Assembly (NCBI GenBank): GCA_019638115.1 | Contig: JAHBUK010000003.1 | Span: 558,001-622,000 of the forward strand | Direction: 5' to 3' | Source of the DNA: Flavobacteriales bacterium | Lineage (GTDB): Bacteria > Bacteroidota > Bacteroidia > Flavobacteriales_F > PHOS-HE28 | DNA length: 64,000 nucleotides | Part shown: one piece after another, positions 4,940-19,641 of the stretch | How the letters are laid out: every line of letters starts with the position of its first letter | Numbering within the stretch: the stretch's first letter is position 1 | Position numbers and translations under genes: made by a program | The notes under the pieces: model-generated | The model's database searches: none | Told to the model about the DNA's origin: nothing | Seen by the model: only the letters and a program-made list of their open reading frames with translations

Positions 4940-5036
4940 TGCGAGTGGCGAGTTTCGAGTGAGCGAGTGGCGAGTGGGCCGATCTGCACCATGGCCCACT
5001 CGCCACTCTTTACTCGCCACTCGCCACTCGCCACTT
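4940..5036. repeat. Self-complementary GAGTGGC-type repeat, copy 1
   Basis: Degenerate 7-8 nt units (GAGTGGC, GAGTTTC, GAGTGAG) at 4941-4978 are followed by their reverse complements (GCCACTC units) at 4992-5035 around a short CCGATCTGCACC loop. The RNA would form one long imperfect hairpin. It lies just after the desaturase stop codon and has no open frame of its own. Confidence 0.8.
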
Positions 5037-12067: not shown

Positions 12068-12819
12068 ACGAGGGCACCCTGGACCGCAAGCGCTTCGAGG
12101 CGATCGAAGCCTATGTGATGGGCCGCATGTCCGATGACGAGCGCGCGCGCTTCGAGCAGGACATGGCCACCGACCCCACCCTGCGTGCCGAAGTGGACCT
12201 GCAGCGCGAGAACACCATGGCCATCGAGCTCGGGGGCATGGACCGCCTGTTGAAGCAGGTGCGTGCCGAGCAGCAGCGGACATCGGAAGGCAGTGGTGGA
12301 AACGGATGGACCACCTACCTGAAGTACGCAGCGGCCATTGCCTTGCTGATCGCTGGTGCGCTCTGGTGGTTGGACCGCGCGCCGCAGCACGACCGTCTTT
12401 TCGCAGAGCACCACGTGGCGGATCCCGGGTTACCGGTGCCCATGAGCCTGCCTGCCGAACGGGCAGGTGCGACGAATGATGCCGCTTTCCACGATGCCAT
12501 GGTGGCCTACAAGCTGGGCGACTTCGCCGAAGCGCGCAGCAAATGGACCTCCCTGCTGAATGCCGCTCCGGGCAACGATACGCTTCGCTATTACATCGCC
12601 CAGGCCGCACTAGCCGAGGGGGACGCCGACAGCGCCGTGCCGCTCTTCGAGCAGGTGGCTGCGGATGCTGCTTCGGTGTTCAGTGGCAAGGCGCGTTGGT
12701 ACCTCTTCCTGGCGCATCTGAAACGTGGCGATCGTACGGCCATGCAGGCTCTCCACCTGGAGGATGATGCCGTGTACGGCGAGCGCGCACGGGCCATCCT
12801 CGAAGCATTTGAGCCGTGA
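12064..12819 (+). CDS. Membrane-anchored TPR protein, probable anti-sigma factor
   Basis: A 251-residue protein coupled to the ECF gene by a 4-bp overlap. Residues 1-80 form a soluble helical N-domain with the acidic FEAIEAYVMGRMSDDERARFEQDM motif typical of zinc-less anti-sigma domains in Bacteroidota. One transmembrane helix lies at about 86-103 (YAAAIALLIAGALWWL), and the periplasmic part (about 135-251) has TPR-like repeats (AYKLGDFAEARSKW, YIAQAALAEGDADSA). The topology fits a signal-transducing anti-sigma factor: cytoplasmic sigma-binding part, periplasmic sensor. Its stop overlaps the GTG start of the CHAT gene. The anti-sigma role is inferred from order and topology. Confidence 0.75.
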   Translation: MNEGTLDRKRFEAIEAYVMGRMSDDERARFEQDMATDPTLRAEVDLQRENTMAIELGGMDRLLKQVRAEQQRTSEGSGGNGWTTYLKYAAAIALLIAGALWWLDRAPQHDRLFAEHHVADPGLPVPMSLPAERAGATNDAAFHDAMVAYKLGDFAEARSKWTSLLNAAPGNDTLRYYIAQAALAEGDADSAVPLFEQVAADAASVFSGKARWYLFLAHLKRGDRTAMQALHLEDDAVYGERARAILEAFEP

Positions 12820-15800
12820 TACGCACGCTCGCCATCGTATGGGCTTGTGCGCTGCCATGCCTTGTGCTGGCGGCGAACGGCGATGCCCTGGCGCAACGCC
12901 ATGCACGCATCAATGCCCTGTACAAAGCGGGCGAGCATAAGCAGTTGATCACGGCGATCGATGCGCAACTGCGCGAAGTACCGGGCACCTCCTGGGCCGA
13001 TTCGGTGCACCACTACCTCTACAAGCATGCTCGCGCACACCGCATGATACACGGCGCCGATGCAGGGGTGCAGGCCGGCGAGCATATTCTGCGGCTTGTG
13101 CAGGAGCGAGCCGTTCCGCAGCACGAGCTGAAGGCCTTGATGGACCTCAGCTGGATCTATTACGAAGTGGGACGCTTGCAGGATTGCGCCCGGGTGGACA
13201 GCCTCGCCGTAGCCCTCACCGACAGGCATGCCGTGTTCTCCGCCGAGCAGCGCGGTAAGGCGCGGCATTACCTCGCTTTCGATCACAGCATCATGGGCGA
13301 GCATGCCAAGGCCGCCCAATGGGCGCGTGCCGCGATCGCCGAGTATGCAAAGAGCGCCGATCCCTTGCCCATGGAACTGGGCGAGAGCCGGACAGCCCTT
13401 GCTGCTTCGCTCCAGCATCTGGGTCGCTTCCGTGATGCGCAGGAGGAGTTCGGCAGGGCCAGGGAGGCGCTGGGAGACAGCGATGCGCTGGACTTCATCA
13501 ACCGCCGCGCGGCCATCGAGGGCAACATGGGCACGTTGTGGCAGGATGCCGGTGACCTGCCCCGCAGCCTCGTCCACTACCAGGCCAGCATACCACACTA
13601 CGACCGCGTGATCGCCGAAGCGGAGTTGGAATACATACGCGATGAAGCGGTGCTGAACCGCTCGCGCACCTACCTCAACATGGCCACGGTCTACTACGAG
13701 CTGGGCGACCTGGGCCGCGCACAGCGCCTGCTGGAAATGGCGTGGAAGGACCGCAGCAGCGTGTTGGAACCGGGCGATGCGCAATTGCTCGCCGTAAAGG
13801 ATCGCATGGCCGATGTGGCCTCCGCAAAGGGAGATCTGGTACAGGCCGTGGCATTGGTGTCCGCCTACCTGAAAGCCTGCCGCGAGAGCTTCGGGGAGCG
13901 CGGTTCGCAGTACATCCGCGCGGCCTCCAAGCTCGGTGACCTCTACCGCCAGCAGGGCGATCACCAACGAGCCGATTCGCTCTTCCGCACCAGCCTGTCC
14001 GTGGGCGGTTTCGGTGCGGACGATGCGATGGACCAAGTACTGCGCCTTACCCTCCTACGGCGTGCACAGTTGCACCGCGCCATGGGCCGCCATGAACAGG
14101 CTATAGCCGATCTGCAACGGGCACGCACGGTGATGGTGAACATCCACGGACCGACGCACTACAAGGTGGCGCAGGCGGACATCGTCCTCGCCGAAGCACA
14201 CTTCGAGGCCGGTGATAATGCGCAGGCTTTGGCACATGCACGCAGCGCACGTGAGATCCTTGGCGAACGTACCGCCGCACTCCAGGCCAACGCTTTGCCG
14301 GTGAACTTCCCCGATCCGCAACTGTTGTCCGAGGCCATCCACTGGGAGGTGCGCGCCGAGCGCGCCATGGCACCACGACCTGCACCCATGAAGCGATGGA
14401 ATGCCCAGCTCGATCTGGCCATCGATGCCCTGGCCCGCAACAAGGCCAGCATGCAGGACGAGGCTTCCAAATTGCTGCTGGTGGGTGCGCAGAAACGCCT
14501 CTTCGACCTGGCCATCGAGATCGCCTACGAGCATTACGCGGAAAGTGGAAGCGAAGCCGCCATCGAGCGTTTCCTCGCGCTCACCGAGGCCGATCGTTCC
14601 GTGTTGCTCAAGGGCAAGTTGAACGCCTTCGCCGGATTGCGCTTCGCCGGTGTGCCCGACAGCCTGCTGGTGAAAGAGCAGGAATTGCTTGCCGCGCTCG
14701 CCATCCGAACCGATGACCGCAGCAGTGCTCGGGACCTCGCGGAAAAGGAGCAGGCCTACCGCGATCTGTTGTCTAAGCTGGAGCGTGATCATCCGCGCTA
14801 CTTCGCGTTGCGCTATGGTGAACCGCAGATAACGCTGGAAGGCGTGCGTAAGGCGCTGCTCAACGGCCAACGTGACCTGGTGGCATATGCCGTCACGACC
14901 GATCATGTGCACGTGCTGGTGGTGGGCGTGGAAAAGGCGTCCATCCTGCGTCTGCCGAACGATGATCTTGCCGGAAAGGTGGCCGCCCTCAATGCCTCGA
15001 TCGCCGCACGCGATGCTGGTGCATACGTGGAGCAGGCGCATGCGCTGTACGCACTGGTCTTCGCTCCGGTGGCCGAGCGCACCAATGCACTCGAGCTGCT
15101 CATCATCCCGGTCGGCCCCTTGCATACGCTCAACTTCGAGGCGCTACTCGTGGCACCATCCTCGCCCACGGCATTCCGCGAGCAGCTGCTGATCCAACGC
15201 CGCGCCATCGCCTACCTGCTTTCGGCCACCACGGCCCTGCGTTTCGCGGAGCTGGCCCGAGGCCGTGCCACCACCGCCATCGCCTTGGCACCCGGCTTCC
15301 AGGACGAGCTGAAGCGCGACTACCTGGCGCAGGTGCGTGACAGTGCGCTCATCGACCAAACCTTCCTGCGCTACGTACGCCAACCCTTCGCGGTGAACAC
15401 GGCGCGCGACCTCGGTGGCCTGCTTTCGGCCCGCGTGATGGTGGGTGGTGAAGCCACCGAACAGCGCTTCCGGGAGGAGGCATCGCGCCATGGCATCCTG
15501 CACCTGGGCACGCACGCGGAGATGAACGCCACCTCGCCGATGTACTCGCGGCTGGTGCTCAGCAAGGACGGCGCGGGCCTGGACCCCGATACCGACGGCT
15601 ACCTGCATGCCTATGAGATCTACGAGCTGGACCTGCGTGCACAACTGGCCGTGCTCACCGCCTGCGAAACCGGCACGGGTCGCCAGGATGCCGGCGAGGG
15701 TGTACGTTCCATCGGCCACGGCTTTGCCTATGCCGGCTGCCCCAGCCTGGTGCTCTCTCTCTGGAAGATCGATGAGAAGGTGACGTCGGAGATCATCAAG

Positions 15801-16037
15801 CGCTTCTACACGCACCTCGCCGCGGGCATGCCCAAGCACCTCGCCCTGCGCCAGGCGAAACTGGACCACCTGGAGAACGCCATGGATGAACTCGCACTGC
15901 CCTATTACTGGGCCGGCTTGGTGCTGGTGGGCGATGTGGAGCCGGTGCAGCTCGACAGCGGAACACCGTGGGTGCTCATGCTGGTTGCCGCCGCCTTGGG
16001 CCTGCTGCTGATCGGGCTGTGGATGCGGCGCAGGTGA
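12816..16037 (+). CDS. TPR-CHAT protein (caspase-fold protease domain)
   Basis: A 1073-residue protein starting at a GTG that overlaps the previous stop (GTGA). Signal peptide about 1-20; TPR array about 20-520 (for example YLNMATVYYELGDLGRAQRLLE); linker; CHAT domain about 690-1035; C-terminal transmembrane helix about 1048-1068 followed by RRR. The caspase-type dyad is intact: His in ILHLGTHAEMN and Cys in VLTACETGTGRQDAGEG. The SLWKIDEKVTSEIIKRFY and PYYWAGLVLVGD motifs are CHAT hallmarks. The signal peptide and C-terminal anchor place the protease domain outside the cytoplasm, anchored in the inner membrane. Substrate unknown; the coupled sigma/anti-sigma pair suggests a stress or signalling pathway. 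Confidence 0.9.
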   Translation: MIRTLAIVWACALPCLVLAANGDALAQRHARINALYKAGEHKQLITAIDAQLREVPGTSWADSVHHYLYKHARAHRMIHGADAGVQAGEHILRLVQERAVPQHELKALMDLSWIYYEVGRLQDCARVDSLAVALTDRHAVFSAEQRGKARHYLAFDHSIMGEHAKAAQWARAAIAEYAKSADPLPMELGESRTALAASLQHLGRFRDAQEEFGRAREALGDSDALDFINRRAAIEGNMGTLWQDAGDLPRSLVHYQASIPHYDRVIAEAELEYIRDEAVLNRSRTYLNMATVYYELGDLGRAQRLLEMAWKDRSSVLEPGDAQLLAVKDRMADVASAKGDLVQAVALVSAYLKACRESFGERGSQYIRAASKLGDLYRQQGDHQRADSLFRTSLSVGGFGADDAMDQVLRLTLLRRAQLHRAMGRHEQAIADLQRARTVMVNIHGPTHYKVAQADIVLAEAHFEAGDNAQALAHARSAREILGERTAALQANALPVNFPDPQLLSEAIHWEVRAERAMAPRPAPMKRWNAQLDLAIDALARNKASMQDEASKLLLVGAQKRLFDLAIEIAYEHYAESGSEAAIERFLALTEADRSVLLKGKLNAFAGLRFAGVPDSLLVKEQELLAALAIRTDDRSSARDLAEKEQAYRDLLSKLERDHPRYFALRYGEPQITLEGVRKALLNGQRDLVAYAVTTDHVHVLVVGVEKASILRLPNDDLAGKVAALNASIAARDAGAYVEQAHALYALVFAPVAERTNALELLIIPVGPLHTLNFEALLVAPSSPTAFREQLLIQRRAIAYLLSATTALRFAELARGRATTAIALAPGFQDELKRDYLAQVRDSALIDQTFLRYVRQPFAVNTARDLGGLLSARVMVGGEATEQRFREEASRHGILHLGTHAEMNATSPMYSRLVLSKDGAGLDPDTDGYLHAYEIYELDLRAQLAVLTACETGTGRQDAGEGVRSIGHGFAYAGCPSLVLSLWKIDEKVTSEIIKRFYTHLAAGMPKHLALRQAKLDHLENAMDELALPYYWAGLVLVGDVEPVQLDSGTPWVLMLVAAALGLLLIGLWMRRR

Positions 16038-16040
16038 TGA

Positions 16041-16085
16041 ACGCAACAAGCCCCGGCCATCACTGAACGGGGCTTGCCCTTGTTC
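16041..16085. terminator. Terminator-like hairpin, copy A (flanks ATPase island)
   Basis: Stem CAAGCCCCG (16047-16055) with CGGGGCTTG (16068-16076), followed by CCCTTGTTC. It lies between the convergent CHAT and ATPase genes and could end both. 42 of 45 bases are identical to copy B at 17551-17595, with all three differences in or beside the loop. Confidence 0.8.
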
Positions 16086-16165
16086 ACCTCTGAGGTGGCT
16101 TGATCAGCATGCCGGAGGCAACGTGGTGACCTCCAATCTGGATCGATCGAATGGCAGGAGTTGGA

Positions 16166-17359
16166 TCACACGATCCTCCAGTCTTCCTGTGGCATGATCC
16201 TCTTCATGAACTGATCGAAAAGCGGAACGGTGAAGGCGGTATCACCGTGGTTCGGACTCCAGATCATGCCCTTTGCGATCAGGTTGTTGCGGCGAGGACC
16301 GAGTGCGGACACAGCAACGCCCAGCACTTGGGCAATGTCCCCCGATCGGTGTGGCCCCGGGCCAAGTTCAGCCATGGCGCGTAGGTAGACCTTCTCAGCA
16401 GGTGTGAGGCGATCGAACCGTACCCGGAAGAAGCTCTCGTCAAGCGCTGCGATAGTAAGAGGCGTTGCATTCCGGACATCACTTTCGGTAATCGGTGACG
16501 CGTCGGCGACATCCCACGTATGCTTGCCCCATTCTTGGATGAAGTAGGGATAGCCTTCTGTCTTTTCGATGATCAGGTCCGTAGCCGCCTTCTCCACATG
16601 TACCTGTTGTCCGGCGGCGGGCTTCTCGATCGCGCTGCGGGCATCCGCAGGGGATAGCGGACCTATGGTGGGGTAGGCGAACAAACGTTCGGCGTATGAC
16701 TTTGCCTCGCCCATACGACCTCGTAATTGTGGCAGGCCAGCCCCGATCAACAGGATCGGCGAACGATTTTGGGCACACCGGTGCATGGCGGTGATCAAGG
16801 CCGCCATCTGATCCTCCGGCACGTACTGGAGCTCGTCGATGAATATGGCGATCGCCGTCCCGCCTTTTGCGGCCGCTTTGCCTGCTGCTTCCAACAGGGC
16901 TTGAAGATCATGCTCCAAGTCGCCGTTGTCGGCCAGGCCGGGTTCAGGATCGAAGTCGAAGCCAACTTCGATGTCGCCGTATTTGACCTTCAAGGCTTTT
17001 GCAAAGCCGGCCAAACCCCGCAGTGCGCGTTCAGCAAGATCTTGCGCATTGGCGTTCCGTGATAGACGGAGAAGGGCCTGCCTGAGTTGAGGCACCAACA
17101 AGGCAGGCAGCGACCCTCTTTCCTTTGCTTCTATGCGAAGTGTGTGGACCCCACTGGCTTCAGCATCATCCTTCATGCGATCCAACAGAACGGTTTTGCC
17201 TACTCCGCGCAAGCCTACCATCATTACGCTCTGGGCGGGGTTGCCAATGCGTACACGAGCGATGGCTATGCGCACTGTTTCCAAGAGATCATCCCGGCCA
17301 ACTAATGCCGGTGGCTGTGTTCCAGCGCCAGGCGCGTAGGGATTTCTGATCGGGTCCAT
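16166..17359 (-). CDS. AAA ATPase with C-terminal winged-helix-like region
   Basis: A 397-residue ATP-binding protein of the orphan family that starts with NPYAPGAGTQPPALVGRD. Walker A is GLRGVGKT near residue 50, Walker B is IAIFIDELQYV near 170, sensor-1-like GAGLPQL near 205. Residues about 320-395 (LTPAEKVYLRAMAELG ... DIAQVLGV ... LIAKGMIW ... FTVPLFDQFMKR) look like a winged helix, as in Orc/Cdc6-like and STAND-type ATPases, so DNA binding is plausible. No signal peptide. It stands alone, on an AT-rich upstream region unlike the flanking DNA, and is bracketed by duplicated terminators, which suggests acquisition by transfer. Function unknown. Confidence 0.85.
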   Translation of the reverse strand: MDPIRNPYAPGAGTQPPALVGRDDLLETVRIAIARVRIGNPAQSVMMVGLRGVGKTVLLDRMKDDAEASGVHTLRIEAKERGSLPALLVPQLRQALLRLSRNANAQDLAERALRGLAGFAKALKVKYGDIEVGFDFDPEPGLADNGDLEHDLQALLEAAGKAAAKGGTAIAIFIDELQYVPEDQMAALITAMHRCAQNRSPILLIGAGLPQLRGRMGEAKSYAERLFAYPTIGPLSPADARSAIEKPAAGQQVHVEKAATDLIIEKTEGYPYFIQEWGKHTWDVADASPITESDVRNATPLTIAALDESFFRVRFDRLTPAEKVYLRAMAELGPGPHRSGDIAQVLGVAVSALGPRRNNLIAKGMIWSPNHGDTAFTVPLFDQFMKRIMPQEDWRIV

Positions 17360-17363
17360 GACT

Positions 17364-17371
17364 CAAATGTA
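17364..17371 (-). promoter_or_regulatory. -7 box of the ATPase promoter
   Basis: TACATTTG on the minus strand, 4 bp before the ATG, so the message would be nearly leaderless. No TTG is present at the usual spacing; an operator-like site begins 6 bp upstream. Confidence 0.45.
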
Positions 17372-17377
17372 AGAATA

Positions 17378-17392
17378 TTAGCCAAATTATCC
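17378..17392 (-). promoter_or_regulatory. Operator-like site 1 (GGATAAnnTGrCTAA)
   Basis: Minus-strand GGATAATTTGGCTAA lies between the -7 box of the ATPase gene and its -33 position. It matches two further copies about 120 bp upstream at 17498-17532, so a regulator bound here would cover the promoter. Confidence 0.5.
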
Positions 17393-17493
17393 TATGAGAA
17401 TAATATTGATAATTTCATTCAATTTGATTGAACGAAAGCTTGCCGATGAGGATGCCCCAAACCCGGATCGATCTTGACTGGCCCGTTCATACA

Positions 17494-17536
17494 GAGTTTA
17501 GTCAAATTATCCTGATTGGATAAACTGACTAAACTC
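17494..17536. promoter_or_regulatory. 43-bp inverted repeat, operator-like sites 2 and 3
   Basis: Arms of 19 bp, GAGTTTAGTCA-nn-TTATCC and its complement, pair at 17 of 19 positions around the 5-nt loop TGATT. Each arm contains the 15-mer GGATAAnnTGrCTAA (17498-17512 on minus, 17518-17532 on plus). No T-tract follows, so it is more likely a protein-binding site than a terminator. Confidence 0.6.
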
Positions 17537-17550
17537 AGTATAACTCCTTA

Positions 17551-17595
17551 ACGCAACAAGCCCCGGCCATTCCTGACCGGGGCTTGCCCTTGTTC
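17551..17595 (-). terminator. groEL terminator, copy B (flanks ATPase island)
   Basis: Stem CAAGCCCCG/CGGGGCTTG downstream of groEL on the minus strand. It is 42/45 identical to copy A at 16041-16085. The island between the two copies, 17360-17550 included, contains the ATPase gene and its AT-rich control region only. Confidence 0.8.
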
Positions 17596-17642
17596 CGTAC
17601 CTCCGCAGCGGTCTCCCGAAGGGGACCCTGCGGCTGTAGTGC

Positions 17643-19641
<1,999 letters not shown>

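Follow-up and report, generated by a model that had tools for sequence, protein, structure and literature searches.

Duplicated terminator regions around a single AAA+ ATPase gene between groEL and a CHAT gene in a Flavobacteriales genome

Insertion with long target duplication is described for Helicobacter pylori, often in connection with restriction-modification genes, in PMC1643837, and PMC3031569 reports that the insertion of restriction-modification systems can be accompanied by long target duplications of variable length. Both sources cite Nobusato et al. (2000, Gene 259:99-108) for this process, and Furuta et al. (2010) is also cited there. Flanking repeats around transposed genes are reported for Arabidopsis in PMC2869330, which discusses both long target duplication and the recombination of circles. 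In these papers, insertion with long target duplication is tied mainly to restriction-modification genes. Here we describe a locus with a similar architecture in which the inserted gene encodes an AAA+ ATPase.

The locus lies in a 64,000-nucleotide stretch of a Flavobacteriales genome (the window). A first-pass annotation had reported near-identical terminators in the same orientation 1.5 kb apart, and this was confirmed: read on the same strand, positions 16041-16085 and 17551-17595 share 42 of 45 bases (43 of 46 when the preceding base is included). With flanking sequence and one 3-bp gap, the repeat extends over the two intervals listed in Table 1. The interval between the copies was also as annotated, consisting of one orphan ATPase ORF, with no transposase or integrase, and a 190-bp region before the start codon. 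This control region has a GC content of 36% versus 60% for the window; the ATPase ORF itself is 58% GC, and hence the AT-richness is confined to the control region.

TABLE 1. Features of the groEL-CHAT interval, in positions of the window
Feature	Position	Strand	Remarks
TPR-CHAT gene	12816..16037	+	convergent with groEL
CHAT-side copy of the duplicated terminator region	16040..16090	-	3 bp past the CHAT stop
AAA+ ATPase (AAA_16), 397 aa	16166..17359	-	Pfam AAA_16
P2, operator/promoter palindrome immediately preceding the ATPase start	17364..17418	-	left half degenerate
P1, additional operator palindrome adjoining the groEL-side repeat	17489..17544	-	
groEL-side copy of the duplicated terminator region	17550..17603	-	
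groEL ORF (chaperonin GroEL, TIGR02348)	17643..19325	-	usual start probably ATG at 19283

A strict hairpin pattern, AAGCCCCGG..CCGGGGCTT, was detected at 4 places in the 4.06-Mb genome, indicating that the 45-mer is not a dispersed repeat. Genome-wide hairpin and repeat searches thus ruled out the dispersed-repeat explanation, and the many scattered copies that the annotation had named as counterevidence did not appear. A search of Rfam with positions 15500-18500 gave no match. A 464-kb sample contained 103 strong hairpins (5253 pairs), and only 10 of these pairs reached a score of 60 or more, with the window terminator pair scoring 77; seven of the other nine were close neighbours at one locus (six in one array) and two were dispersed. 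Apart from close neighbours, no hairpins in the sample were as alike as the window pair. Several other hairpins were recorded. A second hairpin after groEL (17598-17633, about CCGCAGCGGTCTCCCGAAGGGGACCCTGCGG) is a small REP-like repeat with other genomic copies that are 84-92% identical over 35-43 bp, and it is also found near groEL in relatives. Two near-identical hairpins with 9-bp stems lie about 230 bp apart at 4971 and 5200 of the window, and an array of at least 5-6 similar hairpins spaced at 53-110 bp is present at L278:11065-11620 (contig C3 of the same genome, at about 711 kb).

The groEL loci of 14 relatives were read, and all had a hairpin 3' of groEL, mostly of a related type; CHAT was also visible in 6 of the 14 stretches. 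In one of these (G004), groEL and CHAT are separated by a gap of about 175 bp containing a single hairpin that serves both genes. This junction is an empty site of the kind predicted by the annotation, with a single terminator, although the hairpin sequence is unlike that of the window. The other five CHAT-bearing loci had groEL-CHAT distances of 1.2 to 5 kb and different contents. In one (G039), the groEL terminator is present twice (43 of 47 aligned columns identical), on either side of a gene encoding a 625-aa secreted-type protein; this comes close to a case that the annotation had set against insertion, namely, both terminators without the ATPase, with the difference that another gene occupies the site. 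The varied contents and the bracketing in G039 indicate that the interval is variable and that terminator bracketing is not peculiar to the ATPase. In another relative (G025), CHAT and groEL each have their own AAGCCCCGG-type hairpin, with differing loops. Such an arrangement would be expected if nothing had been duplicated in the window, CHAT and groEL each having carried a hairpin common in the genus and the ATPase gene merely lying between the two. We consider this very unlikely, as the 46-bp match in the window runs through the loop and both flanks, whereas the groEL-side and CHAT-side hairpins of the relatives match poorly (best scores of 23 to 31 across the six CHAT-bearing loci); in addition, unlinked hairpins in the sample rarely scored 60, and G004 has one hairpin for both genes.

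ATPase matches were found in 11 of 45 genomes of the genus, eight of the window type (one a fragment) and five of a second type that is about 30% identical, with two genomes containing both. Beyond the window copy, the same genome contains only the 30% identical second type, and no match was detected in 53 sampled other genomes of the class. ATPase genes were visibly adjacent to groEL only in the window and in G027, in which the ATPase is flanked by a repeat of roughly 200 bp from the 3' end of groEL, including the terminator; the other copies in the genus are at different genes. The ATPase is flanked by a 49-bp repeat of the rimO 3' end in G008 and by a 31-bp repeat in G024, while in G011 there is a weak 26-bp similarity to the end of recN (a gene named by eye). 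A comparison of flanks detected no repeat in G004, and the loci in G001 and G043 end at contig ends. The second-type ATPase precedes ileS, with a truncated ileS start upstream and the whole ileS start overlapping the ATPase stop; the ileS repeats scored 93, 78 and 49 in three genomes and were weak (32) or absent (22) in two. These five second-type loci may share one ancestral insertion.

To quantify flanking repeats, the 400 bp upstream of each ATPase was compared with the 400 bp downstream, with a score of at least 40 as the threshold. For distant loci, 110 of 120 were used, 109 of which had enough flank; L142 and L149 (cut) and L168, L186-190, L192 and L197 (cut, short or near-duplicates) were left out, while the near-identical phage loci L158-160, L180-181 and L184-185 were counted separately. 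The threshold was reached by 10 of the 109 loci versus 0 of 1090 mismatched pairs. Two of the ten were artefacts, due to a run of N (L101) and a repeated operator (L112), leaving eight, with L123 being weak; most distant ATPase loci exhibited no repeat. A second set included the genus loci but not the window and was restricted to one locus per near-identical set, with short-flank and N-run loci dropped. In this set, 15 of 102 ATPase loci passed, in comparison to 6 of the 547 other ORFs that these loci contain. The gene edges identified as duplicated include the ribD 5' end (185 bp) and the fabH 3' end (53 bp) in addition to rimO, ileS and groEL, and the repeat of L095 resembles, by eye, part of a tRNA gene. 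Repeat lengths varied from about 31 to >200 bp. As regards the annotation's suggested search for further copies within hairpin repeats, other copies are bracketed by copies of neighbouring gene edges, most of which are coding sequence and not terminators. No strand bias of the upstream neighbour was detected over all ATPase loci (60:44 versus 314:227 for controls); hence, co-direction with the duplicated gene is noted only where an edge repeat belongs to a named gene, which is the case at few loci. Together, the G004 empty site and the edge-bracketed copies supported the annotation's proposal of a gene-end insertion with a duplicated target and no transposase.

The same footprint was detected around unrelated genes. 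Of 310 ORFs in the window and a 400-kb sample of the same genome, 7 passed the repeat test, including the window ATPase. The strongest case was a 440-aa FISUMP gene directly behind pdhB (L263:4669-5992, contig C1), on the far side of which the pdhB end recurs over 151 bp (137 of 151 positions identical). In G042 (L300), a different, 245-aa gene is situated behind pdhB, and the pdhB 3' end is likewise repeated beyond it. In 800 kb from two relatives, 3 of 438 ORFs passed, one of them beside a PIN-like gene (named by eye). Passing ORFs in L276, L280 and L342 were tandem paralogues or unclear. An 86-bp sequence occurs on both sides of the stretch with the PIN-like gene (L345:13105-13735, in G025), which, judged by eye, is perhaps a toxin-antitoxin pair. 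As unrelated genes in G039, the window's own genome and G042 are bracketed alike, the suggestion that this footprint is peculiar to the ATPase element, or to hairpins, was not upheld. What the footprint marks is a general way of gaining genes, one that is neither specific to the ATPase nor the sign of a new transposon.

Relatives of the ATPase are widespread, with at least 579 detected in species genomes. The best 80 of these are 56-75% identical and occur in Proteobacteria, Acidobacteria, Verrucomicrobia, Planctomycetota, Chloroflexota and others; a further 40 loci are in viral or prophage contigs and matches occur in 118 plasmid records. With relatives in so many phyla, the gene is horizontally mobile. 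When loci from unrelated bacteria are aligned pairwise, the match extends from about -70 bp to just short of the stop codon and in most cases no further, so that the shared unit is a palindromic operator/promoter of about 65 bp and the ATPase ORF only. The copy-number search used 50 of the 80 genome loci, and 49 of the 50 carrier genomes had one ATPase copy, a pattern unlike that of an active transposon. E. coli genomes contained no match to a Mangrovibacter copy. Apparent transposition between two plasmids of Arthrobacter ZXY-2 was rejected, since the near-identical copies align over nearly 8 kb, reflecting a shared plasmid backbone. Searches of the open-licence literature listed no paper that, by its title or abstract, presents this ATPase as a mobile unit.

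An AlphaFold2 model of the window ATPase had a mean pLDDT of 91.3 and a pTM of 0.87. The top structural matches were PABY2304 (2qen; Z of 24.0, rmsd of 4.4, 323 residues aligned) and SSO1545 (2fna; 23.0, 4.2 and 323), followed by ORC2 (1w5t; Z of 20.2) and then NLR/apoptosome ATPases and TnsC (Z of 16.8). By this model-based fold match, the protein has the AAA+ fold of the Orc1/Cdc6 and TnsC clade. The archaeal AAA+ ATPases PABY2304 and SSO1545 share the fold across most of the ATPase at an identity of 14-16%, and the likeness to Orc1/Cdc6 and TnsC is limited to the fold. PADLOC detected no defence family for the locus, with only weak Cas3 matches near an E value of 0.001, and the PHROGs match was phrog_6841, a family of unknown function. 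The operator consensus computed on 82 loci, TTaTAncgAnnTTAgnnAgtTTATcn..gaTAAAtTnncTAAntTcgnTATAAt, is a palindrome, and in the window's own genome the pattern occurs at this locus only, at two sites. The ATPase is probably autoregulated through this palindrome, its own operator, to which it would bind by the C-terminal part. The palindrome was also considered as an integron attC site and rejected by eye against the attC consensus.

The reading that we favour, with moderate confidence, is that transposase-free recombination placed a self-contained single-gene unit, made up of the palindromic operator/promoter and the AAA+ ATPase, between groEL and CHAT and in doing so duplicated about 51-54 bp containing the terminator. 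The unit would travel on DNA that includes a copied gene edge, at which homologous recombination would make the host gene whole with the edge of the donor and would leave the native edge beyond the ATPase. The unit would first become joined to a new host gene through an illegitimate, short-homology event, which would survive when the host gene stays intact. Relevant evidence came from G027. The last ~60 nt of its intact groEL match G036 best, while nt 750 to 1525 are nearest to G024, G034, G008 and G026 and further from G036; the orphan groEL tail beyond the ATPase has a G024/G034-type ending. A foreign tail beside the ATPase and a native-like displaced tail indicate that homologous recombination at the gene edge took part at this locus. 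The two rimO copies in G008 share 43 bp without a mismatch, and a plain target duplication fits this as well as a donor edge. The pdhB copies resemble each other (91% identity) more closely than they resemble any other species compared, and among relatives the states of both copies are mixed. A recipient origin of both copies therefore fits rimO in G008, is contradicted by groEL in G027 and is mixed at pdhB; for the ribD edge, the relatives compared were too distant to point to a donor. We take ordinary recombination at gene edges to be the most probable process.

The positions of the junctions bear on this reading. The far copy begins 5-23 bp from the ATPase stop in seven loci (L061, L086, L097, L063, L058, L079 and L152) and 58-167 bp from it in L145, the window, L095 and L178. 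Random illegitimate joints should scatter, and hence the tight junctions count against our preferred explanation; they are the main fact that gene-edge recombination leaves unexplained. Unit boundaries that are tight at both ends across unrelated sites would fit a dedicated enzyme inserting the unit with long, variable target duplications, either encoded elsewhere or helped by the ATPase, whose ORC/TnsC-like fold is encoded next to a palindrome. The TnsC match and the restriction of the operator to this locus in the genome would also suit such an enzyme. We nevertheless consider it unlikely, given that the same footprint surrounds unrelated genes lacking both operator and ATPase in this genus, that 49 of the 50 carriers have a single copy, that the repeats vary so widely in length and that a donor-type groEL tail is present in G027. 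Broader still would be the proposal of pan-bacterial, transposase-free one-gene units (a ~65-bp palindrome plus an ORC/TnsC-like ATPase) in which the palindrome-bound ATPase drives gene-edge insertion with long variable target duplications and keeps itself in single copy; this we regard as decidedly improbable.

The additional palindrome P1 could point to a more complex history. P1 and P2 are spaced 70 bp apart, and P1 abuts the groEL-side repeat in the position occupied by the operator in G027; a second operator-like palindrome was also seen, by eye, upstream of the G004 ATPase. It is conceivable, if doubtful, that an earlier groEL unit like that of G027 left P1 behind and that a second unit, consisting of P2 and the present ATPase, replaced or joined it. 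However, the stretch from P1 to P2 had no convincing match in the 45 genus genomes (best other match of 25 bp, E value of 0.002), so that no source for such a remnant was found. A history of two events would be compatible with gene-edge recombination as the process. Operator copies with no ATPase directly behind them were observed at P1 of the window (17489-17544), in L060 (upstream of 7192) and in L112 (about 342 bp past the ATPase stop), and are perhaps remnants of earlier units.

In comparison with known systems, the absence of a transposase ORF, a shared unit of operator and ATPase without an element's terminal repeats, and the rarity of several similar copies per genome (one copy in all but one of the 50 carriers) distinguish the unit from an insertion sequence or transposon. 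Homology-facilitated illegitimate recombination, as presented in PMC3240628 and PMC2884548, could add a gene through homology on one side and an illegitimate joint while the host gene stays whole; here, in contrast to those accounts, the joints are close to the cargo ends and recipient DNA is duplicated rather than deleted. Gene movement without a transposase at this locus looks like a known, little-studied kind. The window case shares the architecture of insertion with long target duplication in having an insert between long target repeats of variable length, with no transposase of its own, and a single-copy empty site in a relative (G004, with a differing hairpin sequence). The case differs in cargo, in spread and in one locus with a donor tail: an AAA+ ATPase with a palindromic operator, as well as FISUMP and other secreted-type protein genes, are carried here, and the repeats are mostly gene edges, with a donor-type edge at one locus (G027). 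That such insertions surround an ATPase gene spread over many phyla, and secreted-type protein genes within a single genus, suggests a broader way for bacteria to gain single genes while sparing the neighbouring gene. Since the duplicated edge records the entry point of each gene, the mechanism can be tested by genome comparison. For this uncharacterised, probably self-regulated, single-copy ATPase family, defence and addiction are candidate functions.
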